DNA of 64,000 nt from Nitrospirota bacterium. GTDB lineage: Bacteria; Nitrospinota_A; UBA7883; JACRGQ01. The notes below the pieces were generated by a model that made no database searches, was not told where the DNA came from, and worked only from the letters and a program-made list of their open reading frames with translations. Shown piece by piece: positions 17,012-61,179 of the stretch. The position numbers and the translations under genes are program-made. Where the stretch lies: positions 1-64,000 of the forward strand of contig JAJRYD010000004.1 of the NCBI GenBank assembly GCA_024275955.1, in the 5' to 3' direction. Each line of letters starts with the position of its first letter. The first letter of the stretch is position 1.

Positions 17012-17141
17012 GGCACTGTTTCCAAAAAAGTTTTTTAAAGCATTTTAAGAAAAAGTTCATTTTTTAACTTTAAAAAAATAGAGCCGTTAGCGATTGATAA
17101 TTTTAAAGAAAATCAAGATCGTCTTATTCGGCAACAGCCAC
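17011..17141 (-). mobile_element. MITE-like element, copy A (131 bp, reverse orientation)
   Basis: Starts GGGCACTGTTTCC at the stop codon of the barrel gene and ends TCGGCAACAGCCAC. The interior matches the reverse complement of the copies at 42294 and 59858, including the TTAAAG and TTTAACTTTAAAAAAATAG blocks. The ends form imperfect terminal inverted repeats (GGGnCTGTTnCC). No target duplication is visible, so this is probably an older copy. Confidence 0.85.
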
Positions 17142-37081: not shown

Positions 37082-38503
37082 TTATGCTCCGCCTAAAAGG
37101 TAGTCTACCACCTCTTTGACGCTGTACGATTTTTTGGTATCGGAAAGAAAGTGCCGAAGGTTCAAAACATCGTCTCCCATTGTAAGGAGAGGTTTTTCCT
37201 CGTAACCGCCTTTTTGTATCTGGTGGTAGCCGACATTTGCCATCAGGCCGTTGCAGAGGCATTTTCTGCCGACGGCATCTTCCAGCCTGCCGCCCTTTTT
37301 GACATAAATATTTTCCGGTTCCGAAGGGCATCGGTATCCTATCTCTCCGTTACTTTTAAGGAAGAGGTGTCTTAAAAAGCCGAGGTCGCATATTCTCGTT
37401 CTGTTTTCATAAATATCTTTTTCCGAGTTGGTTCCCTTTATATTAAGTACCTTAAAAGGAAAACCTGTAGGCGACGCTACAGGGTCGGTAAAGACTTTTG
37501 CCGTTCCATTGTTGATAGCTTCCAGTATCAGTTTTTTCCAGCTTTCGGCATAGCCGGACTCTGCCGTGCCGGCAAAAGCTGTGCCGACCTGTATGCCGGC
37601 GGCTCCAAGCTCTGTTGCTTCTTTTAGTTTTCCAGGGCTTCCCCACCCGCCCGCAAGCCAGAACGGCAAGCCGAGGTTTTTGATTTTTCCCAAGTCTACC
37701 TTATCTTTTTCTCCGTAGATAGGTTCGCCGTTTTCATCTAGTTTCATGGCGCCTCTTGGCGGGGCGTTGTGTCCTCCGGCAGTTGCCCCTTCCACGATAA
37801 AACCATTTACTTTGCCTGTAGATTTTTTAAAAAGAGTAAGGGCCAGCACCGCCGACGAGATGATGGGGAAAAACTCCGGTCGCTTTAGAGGAGGCAGAAT
37901 TTTGTCGATTATTGCGCTTGGGTTAAAGGTTAGTTTAAAATCGCCGGCAGTTTGAGCACCTATGACGTTTATTTTCATGGAGACTTCTTCATGGTTTACA
38001 AGCTTATCCAGTATGCCGGGAATTTCTCTCGGTATGCCGGCACCCATTATTATTATATCTACGCCGGCAAGCATCGCTCCGTAAATTCCAGAAAGATTTG
38101 GAAGCTGTATTTTTTCTAAAAAGTTTATCCCTACAAGGTTGTCATGCTCTTCCTTAGCTAGAAAAACCTCGACAAAATTTCCGACGATATTGAGTTCTTG
38201 GAGCATTTTCGACGGGTTGAGGCTGAACATATGACTAAGTTTAAAAGCATCCGATGCTTTTTTGCCGCCGGGGATGAAAAATTCATCCATTATCCTTTTG
38301 ATTATTTCCTGAATAGGGAAATGCTCCATCGCCCTTCTTATGTTGCCGCCAGAATCGCCAAGCTGGAGCCTTCTTACTAGAGCCATATCGAGCGCCGTTC
38401 CAGAAACTACGCCAAGCTGGCCCTCTTTGGAAACCGCTTTGGCAAGATTCCAGTCGGAAACGGCCGCTCCCATCCCGCCTTGTATTATCAAAGGATAACT
38501 CAT
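37082..38503 (-). CDS. Nitronate monooxygenase/PfaD-like FMN enzyme
   Basis: A 473-residue FMN-dependent TIM-barrel protein of the nitronate monooxygenase group, longer than classic members (about 350). Signs are LIIQGGMGAAVS at the N-terminus, IMGAGIPREIP, the EGATAGGHNAPPRG loop and LAGGWGSPGKLKEATELGA. A Cys pair (GRKCLCNGL) lies in the extra C-terminal part. Related enzymes include FabK and PfaD enoyl reductases, so the substrate is open. ATG 38503 (MSYPLII) is preferred. Confidence 0.88.
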   Translation of the reverse strand: MSYPLIIQGGMGAAVSDWNLAKAVSKEGQLGVVSGTALDMALVRRLQLGDSGGNIRRAMEHFPIQEIIKRIMDEFFIPGGKKASDAFKLSHMFSLNPSKMLQELNIVGNFVEVFLAKEEHDNLVGINFLEKIQLPNLSGIYGAMLAGVDIIIMGAGIPREIPGILDKLVNHEEVSMKINVIGAQTAGDFKLTFNPSAIIDKILPPLKRPEFFPIISSAVLALTLFKKSTGKVNGFIVEGATAGGHNAPPRGAMKLDENGEPIYGEKDKVDLGKIKNLGLPFWLAGGWGSPGKLKEATELGAAGIQVGTAFAGTAESGYAESWKKLILEAINNGTAKVFTDPVASPTGFPFKVLNIKGTNSEKDIYENRTRICDLGFLRHLFLKSNGEIGYRCPSEPENIYVKKGGRLEDAVGRKCLCNGLMANVGYHQIQKGGYEEKPLLTMGDDVLNLRHFLSDTKKSYSVKEVVDYLLGGA

Positions 38504-42288: not shown

Positions 42289-42427
42289 ATGTTGGGGCTG
42301 TTGCCGAATAAGACAATCTTGATTTTGCTACAACTTGCCACTCTCTAACGGTTCTATTTTAAAGAAGTTAGAAAATAAACTTTTCCTTAAACTGCTCAAA
42401 AAACTCTTTTGGAAACAGTCCCATGTT
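42289..42427 (+). mobile_element. MITE-like element, copy B, with 5-bp target duplication ATGTT
   Basis: The 129-bp element is 42294-42422, from GGGGCTGTTGCC to GGAAACAGTCCC (10 of 12 terminal-repeat positions match). Identical ATGTT lies on both sides (42289-42293 and 42423-42427). It ends 16 bp before the acyl-CoA ligase start codon. Confidence 0.88.
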
Positions 42428-46258: not shown

Positions 46259-46389
46259 GGGGCTGTTGCCGAATAATACAATCTTAATCTTGCCGCAAAA
46301 TGCCAACCTCTAACGGCTCTATTTTAAAAAAGTTAGAAAATAAACTTTCCCTTAAAATGCTCAAAAAAACTCTTATCGAAAACAGTCCC
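46259..46389 (+). mobile_element. MITE-like element, copy C (131 bp)
   Basis: Runs from GGGGCTGTTGCCGAAT to AAAACAGTCCC and matches copies B and F along its length with about a dozen differences. It abuts the mutL stop codon (46391-46393). No target duplication is visible, so it is probably older. Confidence 0.87.
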
Positions 46390-49798: not shown

Positions 49799-50046
49799 GG
49801 GGGAGTTGCCGAAATAGTTTTTTGAACATTTCAAGGAGAGGTTCATTTTCTAATTCCTTAAAGATAGAATCTTTAGATATTGGCAATTTGCAATAGAACC
49901 AGCTTATGGGTTCCTCTAAAAATAAGTGATTTTCTTCATCGGTTTCGGCAATAGCACTAAATCCCCATCTATAATTCGACCAACCAAAAGTCAGAACTTT
50001 AAAAATAGATTTTTAGAGGTTCCCTTATGTCATTCGGCAACAGCCT
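49799..50046 (-). mobile_element. MITE-like element, copy D, interrupted by a second element
   Basis: The left part (49799-49907) begins GGGGGAGTTGCCGAAAT and follows the reverse-complement consensus; the right part (50030-50046) ends TCGGCAACAGCC. Removing the inserted segment and one target copy gives about 126 bp, close to the family length. It has many differences from copies B and F, so it is an old copy. Confidence 0.75.
49903..50029. mobile_element. Second small element with target duplication CTTAT, inside copy D
   Basis: A 117-bp segment (49908-50024) has inverted ends: GGGTTCCTCTAAAAAT at the left and ATTTTTAGAGGTTCC at the right, sharing an 11-bp perfect core. Identical CTTAT lies on both sides (49903-49907 and 50025-50029). 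It encodes nothing. The ends differ from the main family, so it is a distinct element. Confidence 0.72.
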
Positions 50047-50122
50047 TCCAGCAGTCTTTCAATGCCGAAGACGGCAAGAACTTTATTTTAATATTTTAGG
50101 TTTAAAGATTTTTCAAACCTGT

Positions 50123-52951: not shown

Positions 52952-53131
52952 ATGGCAGCCAAAAAGAAAGCTAAGAAAAAAGCTGTGAAGAAAAAGGCCA
53001 AAAAGAAAGTAACTAAGAAAAAGGCTAAAAAGAAAGCGACCAAGAAAAAGGCTAAAAAGAAAGCGACTAAGAAAAAGGCCACCAAGAAAAAGGCCAAAAA
53101 GAAGGCTAAGAAAAAGGCTAAAAAGAAGTAA
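52952..53131 (+). CDS. Histone H1-like lysine/alanine-rich protein
   Basis: A 59-residue protein made almost entirely of KKKA repeats with a few Thr and Val (MAAKKKAKKKAVKKK at the start). Such proteins resemble the C-terminal tail of eukaryotic H1 and bacterial Hc1 or AlgP-like nucleoid proteins. It has a strong AAGGAGG and a perfect terminator downstream, so expression is expected. It probably binds DNA or RNA non-specifically. Confidence 0.85.
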   Translation: MAAKKKAKKKAVKKKAKKKVTKKKAKKKATKKKAKKKATKKKATKKKAKKKAKKKAKKK

Positions 53132-53182
53132 CTCGGAAGACTAGCGGTAACCGCGTAGTCTAAATTTACTGTTCGGCTTTTA

Positions 53183-59794: not shown

Positions 59795-60056
59795 GGGCCT
59801 GTTGCCGAAATGGTTTTGGAGTATTTGGAGGAAAGACTCGTCTCTTGCCTTCTTTAAGGGGCTGTTGCCGAATGAGATAAGTTTAATTTTTCTACAAATT
59901 ACCAACTCCTAAAGGCACTATTTTAAAGAAGTTAGAAAATAAACTTTTCCTTAAACTGCTCAAAAAACTCTTTTGGAAACAGTCCCTTTAAAATAGATAT
60001 TTTAGCGGTTGGTGGTTTTAAACAAAATCAAATTTATGAGATTCGGCAACAGCCCC
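59795..60056 (-). mobile_element. MITE-like element, copy E, carrying copy F inside it
   Basis: The left part (59795-59857) begins GGGCCTGTTGCCGAAAT and the right part (59992-60056) ends TCGGCAACAGCCCC. Together they are 128 bp, the family length, in reverse orientation. The junction without the insert would read CTTCTTTAAAATAG, which matches the family consensus exactly. Confidence 0.85.
59853..59991 (+). mobile_element. MITE-like element, copy F, with target duplication TTTAA
   Basis: The 129-bp element occupies 59858-59986 (GGGGCTGTTGCC to GGAAACAGTCCC) in forward orientation and is nearly identical to copy B. TTTAA lies on both sides (59853-59857 and 59987-59991) and duplicates 5 bp of the older copy E. 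Confidence 0.9.
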
Positions 60057-60178: not shown

Positions 60179-60574
60179 CTATTTAGATAACTTTTGACCC
60201 TGTGATTTAGGCTGGTAAACCTGAAGGACCGATTTGGCCGCCGCTTTTCCAGTTTTATCGGCATCACGGTAGAGGTTTATCAGCTCTATCTCATCCTTTG
60301 AAAGCATACCTATACCATAGCCCGCGCCGCCGCTTTCTGCTACATTGCCATTTCCTTGCGGCTCTTTTCCTGTAAGCAGATAGTCTGAACTGATACCGTA
60401 ATAACCTGCGGCCCAGAAGATAAATTCTGCTGTCGGCCTTGCCTTGCCAGCCTCGAACCTCTGGATTACCTGTTGTCTGGAACCAAACTCTTTCGCCGCC
60501 TCACGCTGGGTAATACCGGCATTTTTCCGAACCTTTTTCAGCCGTTCGCCGATACCTTCGAGACTATATTCCAC
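60179..60574 (-). CDS. XRE-family regulator of the phage-repressor type
   Basis: A 131-residue regulator. The helix-turn-helix is in residues about 8-65 (GERLKKVRKNAGITQREAAK, QQVIQRFEAGKARPTAEFIF), with a divergent C-terminal part. It faces the CI-like gene at 60772 across a spacer with clustered ACACC/GGTGT sites. Such divergent pairs are typical of lysogeny control, but no other phage gene is in the window. Start GTG 60574. Confidence 0.85.
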   Translation of the reverse strand: MEYSLEGIGERLKKVRKNAGITQREAAKEFGSRQQVIQRFEAGKARPTAEFIFWAAGYYGISSDYLLTGKEPQGNGNVAESGGAGYGIGMLSKDEIELINLYRDADKTGKAAAKSVLQVYQPKSQGQKLSK

Positions 60575-60771: not shown

Positions 60772-61179
60772 ATGAGCAACACAAACAAGCAGACATTCAA
60801 AAACCGGCTAGAGATCCTTATGGCAGACTGCGGAGAAAGACAGCCTTATGCCTGGGCCAAAAAAATGGGCATAAAAGTAGGCCTTTTTTCCTACTACTGG
60901 AATAAAGGCAATGTACCGACCTTCGAAACGCTTATGAAGATCCAGAGCTATACAGGTTGCTCGCTCGACTGGCTTCTTATGGGACAAAAAGTGGCGGCAA
61001 ACGAGCGTTTCTCCTACCTCAATTTCGAGAAAAGCGAGAAAGATACCGGCAAGAATGAGATGGCACTGCTAAAAAACTACCACATGCTAAAAGCGATTCA
61101 TCAAAAACCTGAGAAGTTCAAAAAAGTGGAAGCGATAGGAGAAATCTTAAAAGCTTTCTCTTTAAAAGAGGGAAGCTGA
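60772..61179 (+). CDS. CI-like helix-turn-helix protein
   Basis: A 135-residue protein whose N-terminal 65 residues look like a phage CI-type HTH (FKNRLEILMADCG, WAKKMGIKVGLFSYYWN, LMKIQSYTGCSLDWLLMG). The C-terminal part is helical and unrecognised; no peptidase domain for self-cleavage is seen. Divergent from the XRE gene at 60574 and probably part of the same switch. Confidence 0.75.
   Translation: MSNTNKQTFKNRLEILMADCGERQPYAWAKKMGIKVGLFSYYWNKGNVPTFETLMKIQSYTGCSLDWLLMGQKVAANERFSYLNFEKSEKDTGKNEMALLKNYHMLKAIHQKPEKFKKVEAIGEILKAFSLKEGS

Follow-up and report, generated by a model that had tools for sequence, protein, structure and literature searches.

We identified a new family of MITEs in the genome of a Nitrospinota-like bacterium, in which one copy, F, is inserted within an older copy, E. 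The two lie at positions 59795–60056 of the window, that is, the whole 64,000-nucleotide stretch analysed, which is located on contig C29 of the host assembly (2.45 Mb, 56 contigs, 98% complete). It is almost certain that F entered E with duplication of the 5-bp target TTTAA, the family presumably being moved in trans. MITEs are a well-known kind of mobile DNA, and the E/F arrangement is an ordinary nested insertion; both the observation made in the original prediction from the sequence and its interpretation as transposition are correct.

A copy nested within a sister copy

The inner element F is a 129-bp MITE at 59858–59986 on the forward strand, matching the family model over its full length (positions 1–129) and bounded by imperfect inverted repeats of about 20 bp (GGGGCTGTTGCCGAATGAG / GGGACTGTTTCCAAAAGAG). 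It splits E, whose parts remain recognisable on the reverse strand. The right-hand part, which includes one TTTAA, occupies 59795–59857 (positions 66–129 of the model in nhmmer searches), and the left-hand part, carrying the GGGGCTGTTGCCGAA end, occupies 59992–60056 (positions 1–71); the alignment of the joined element supports both assignments. The two TTTAA copies were read directly in the sequence at 59853–59857 and 59987–59991, their register being set by the family-wide statistics described below. The predicted coordinates of F, the opposite orientation of the two elements and the flanking TTTAA were thus all borne out.

With F and one TTTAA taken out, the joined E measures 128 bp, as predicted, and aligns end to end with the family model (83.5 bits, E = 4.7e-27), gap-free across the junction and with a single one-base gap far from it. 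Keeping both TTTAA copies lowers the score to 76.9 bits and introduces a 5-base insertion, while deleting both lowers it to 70.2 bits and leaves a 5-base gap. Since the empty site is best reconstructed with exactly one TTTAA, an insertion of F into E is favoured. The restored junction, CTTCTTTAAAATAG, is the sequence also found in F itself and in another window copy, B. The majority consensus at this point is CTTCTTAAAAATAG in subfamily I and CTTCTTCAAAATAG in subfamily II, so the claimed exact match between the restored junction and the family consensus is true of some copies and not of the majority consensus of either subfamily. Base 59986 is a C, so the E/F boundary taken alone is compatible with a duplication of either TTTAA or the 6-bp CTTTAA, and it is the duplication statistics of the family that point to 5 bp.

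The nested element is adjoined by divergent genes encoding helix-turn-helix proteins (60179–60574, reverse strand; 60772–61179, forward strand), with HTH_3 and weak Phage_CI_repr matches.

A MITE family with two subfamilies

The host genome contains 174 exact occurrences of the end pattern GGGRCTGTTKCCNAA and none of the reversed control. In 363 kb, comprising the window and stretches mainly around end sites, there were 143 matches to the family model, 114 of them full length; as the stretches were selected around matches, this is a lower bound on the copy number. The family is identified as a MITE by its short length (129 bp, where MITEs are under about 500 bp), its high copy number, inverted ends, a target duplication of constant length and the lack of a transposase gene.

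Clustering separated two subfamilies, I with 103 copies and II with 17 members including the joined E, whose consensus sequences agree at 107 of 130 positions (about 82%). F is identical to consensus I at 121 of 130 positions. E agrees with consensus II at 112 of 129 positions and with consensus I at only 96 of 130. F is thus a member of subfamily I and E one of subfamily II, and the target of F was a sister element rather than an older copy of its own subfamily. The original description of E as an older copy of the same element therefore stands as regards age and family, but not subfamily.

The window contains four further copies. Copy A (17012–17141, reverse strand) is flanked by CCAAT/CTAAT, matching at four of five positions, and copy C (46259–46389, forward strand) no longer has a clear duplication. 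Copy B (42294–42422, forward strand), of subfamily I, shows an ATGTT/ATGTT duplication and is 100% identical to a copy at a different locus, C11:49303–49431; such identity at separate loci suggests that the family moved recently. Copy D (49800–50047, reverse strand) is split by a second, unrelated MITE at 49908–50024.

No reading frame is open through the whole consensus. A coding role was considered for the right half, which is open in one frame, yet the conservation there lacks a codon pattern. An RNA role was likewise rejected: Rfam matches fall far under the cut-off, no terminator-like site is present, and the folding z-scores (−2.5 to −0.9) are accounted for by the inverted ends.

Target duplication and insertion-site preference

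An exact 5-bp repeat in the expected register flanks 65 of the 114 full copies; in a further 18 the flanks agree at four of five positions (83 in all), whereas each duplication length other than 5 bp is seen in 0 to 3 copies. When left and right flanks were shuffled, exact 5-bp pairs averaged 0.9, with a maximum of 5 over 2000 trials. Transposition with a 5-bp target duplication, predicted from E/F, is thus supported both at that locus and across the family.

The restored sites reveal a palindromic target preference, Y|WTNAW|R, with C or T at position −1 in 84% of sites, T at +1 in 69%, A at +3 in 71%, and A or G at +5 in 79%; the site entered by F, C|TTTAA|A, agrees with it. Insertions also lie mostly between genes: 63 of the 69 testable sites fall outside open reading frames of at least 100 aa, whereas the same is true of 88 of 413 control points in their vicinity.

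Putative transposase and mechanism

These features would fit a DDE-type transposase, provided in trans, that binds both ends of the element, excises or copies it, and joins the copy to a palindromic, mostly intergenic Y|WTNAW|R target with a 5-bp stagger, repair of which would yield the 5-bp duplication. At the present locus, F of subfamily I entered C|TTTAA|A midway along an existing subfamily II element, E, in the opposite orientation.

An insertion sequence sharing the ends and the 5-bp duplication, which the original prediction proposed to look for, was not found in the assembly. No transposase gene lies between family ends in any stretch examined, and all listed exact end sites belong to short copies, truncated remnants, or copies broken by other elements, namely an IS3-like element (C12), an IS5-like element (C51) and the second MITE (C11, C13). 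In the host genome, the profiles of the Tn3 (PF01526) and IS1380 (PF13701) transposases gave zero matches, and that of IS982 (NF033520) only one sub-threshold match (E = 0.04). Of the matches to PF01609 (DDE_Tnp_1), three are IS5-like fragments and the fourth is an IS4-like remnant; all were rejected as the parent, as they lack family ends. An IS1634 origin was similarly discarded, the matches to NF033559 being limited to a weak one within an IS4-like remnant that lacks family ends and a false positive, an ATP synthase b subunit. The parent, if multi-copy, may be missing from the fragmented assembly, or it may have been lost. That both subfamilies were moved by an undescribed or unrecognised transposase family, making 5-bp duplications at Y|WTNAW|R and acting on GGGGCTGTTGCC-type ends, with the enzyme present in the organism and missing from the assembly, is conceivable though unlikely. 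In Haloquadratum walsbyi, MITEs have been reported to move although the genome lacks a functional transposase (PMC3119063).

The general features of the family resemble those of RUP and other bacterial MITEs, which are short, non-coding and AT-rich, with inverted ends, a target duplication, around 100 intergenic copies and, presumably, movement in trans. RUP of Streptococcus pneumoniae is 107 bp long and is present in about 108 copies, and IS630-Spn1, acting at TA sites, has been suggested to move it (PMC2229807). Unlike RUP, the family described here makes 5-bp duplications, has GGGGCTGTTGCC/GGGACTGTTTCC ends and has no known partner. The IS1634 family also generates AT-rich target duplications, of 5–6 bp, but its ends begin with C in a published survey (PMC2266710), whereas those of the present family begin with GGG and no IS1634 transposase was found.

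Tn3-type ends start with GGGG, and the ends of the family start with GGGG or GGGA. Together with the 5-bp duplications in AT-rich targets, this raises the possibility of a Tn3-derived miniature element (TIME), since TIMEs duplicate 5 or 6 bp of target in AT-rich DNA (PMC4133298). We consider such an origin rather improbable: TIMEs are defined by 38-bp Tn3-like inverted repeats (PMC4133298), the family ends are alike over about 20 imperfect bases only, and the host genome yielded no Tn3 transposase.

Frequency and direction of nesting

Nesting also occurs in the converse direction. On C49, a subfamily II copy (37801–37929) lies within an older subfamily I copy (37777 to about 38026), flanked by ACAAG/ATAAG. 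This reciprocity, I in II and II in I, points to an overlap in time between the two subfamilies. On C4, the outer element, entered at CTTTAA by a copy with 97% identity to F, has lost its right half. Among about 121 copies, two nestings are clean (E/F and C49) and about four are damaged (C4, C14, C25 and C28).

Such a number could be taken to mean that the elements home to their own kind, nesting being a mechanism rather than chance, the more so as the site used in E and in C4 is one of several YWTNAWR matches within the element itself (near positions 65 and 93). Given the abundance of the family, this explanation is not needed and is very unlikely. About 121 copies of 129 bp make up approximately 4.4% of the intergenic DNA, if the intergenic share is taken from the window, where 14.5% is non-ORF sequence, and the density of YWTNAWR in family copies is 1.2 to 1.9 times that of intergenic DNA. 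A rough calculation (121 × 4.4% × 0.5 × 1.5) gives about 4 nestings, so nesting is about as frequent as chance would predict for an element that prefers AT-rich intergenic DNA. In Haloquadratum walsbyi, 192 insertions of mobile elements, MITEs included, into mobile elements have been described; there, the elements entered by MITEs are PATEs and IS605-type transposons, none of the targets being a MITE (PMC3119063), whereas here MITEs enter MITEs.

It is highly improbable that E and F instead form one longer compound repeat, produced by recombination or inverted duplication without insertion: some other paired copies do resemble products of recombination or deletion (C25:14364–14549 and C28:8699–8861), but F retains both ends in full, is flanked by an exact 5-bp duplication in the family register and occupies a target site of the preferred kind, E is continuous once F and one TTTAA are removed, and the two belong to different subfamilies, contrary to the inverted duplication of a single copy. 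The 5-bp register statistics had already largely refuted this explanation. Moreover, F-like and E-like copies occur separately rather than as one intact longer repeat, the former standing alone at about 100 places in the host genome and the latter including uninterrupted copies, the best of which is 88% identical (C9:56442–56315).

Other repeats and mobile elements

The second MITE family, represented in the window by the 117-bp element that splits copy D, has GGGWWCCTCTAAAAAT ends and, at that site, a 4-bp TTAT/TTAT duplication. About 10 copies, 95–99% alike, are present in the genome, with 4-bp duplications of TTAT, TTTA, TCAA and TTAA; three of them are nested within first-family copies (49908–50024 in the window, C11:20803 and C13:41648). 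An IS5-like insertion sequence, with ends near GTCCCTGAAAAA / GTCGTCCCTAAAAA, is found at the starts of C9 and C33 and at the end of C51, and has probably broken the assembly at these contig ends. It is also inserted in a copy of the first family at C51:12520–12597.

At C38:11009–11060, a helix-turn-helix reading frame (...RWIRGENELLLKMLKNSFGNSP...) has at its end, in frame, the right terminus of a family copy, so MITE sequence may possibly have been captured there as coding sequence. An in-frame TAA lies upstream, however, and suggests that this gene is broken. Elsewhere in the window, 131-bp tandem direct repeats occupy the very start of the contig (1–393), their first two units being 99% alike, and a Lys/Ala-rich repeat region at 52959–53132, built of AAGAAAAAGGCC units, resembles a histone-H1-like tail.

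Distribution and significance

A DNA search of 59 other genomes, ten of the same taxonomic family included, did not detect the family; two matches at E ~ 1e-3 were short, AT-rich and due to chance. The family was likewise absent from 288 other genomes searched by end pattern, of which nine had single matches; the six of these that were examined were isolated, with no similarity to the element beyond the end. Searches of GTDB contigs and of plasmids gave 0 matches each. Three matches in viral contigs were dismissed as chance, extending to the end only, the rest of the element having no match. The end strings of the family were not found in the relevant literature, nor did the literature searched contain a report of MITEs for a Nitrospinota-like group. 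As to the host, the closest relative of a biotin-synthesis protein encoded in the window is from a Nitrospinales MAG (59%), followed by Nitrospinota MAGs, so that the bacterium probably belongs to the Nitrospinota.

These results describe, in a Nitrospinota-like genome, a MITE family that is large, was recently active and seems confined to its lineage. Its copies, nested in both directions, provide a relative clock for the two subfamilies, and the sharp 5-bp duplication, along with the palindromic target, offers a concrete signature with which to seek the missing transposase.
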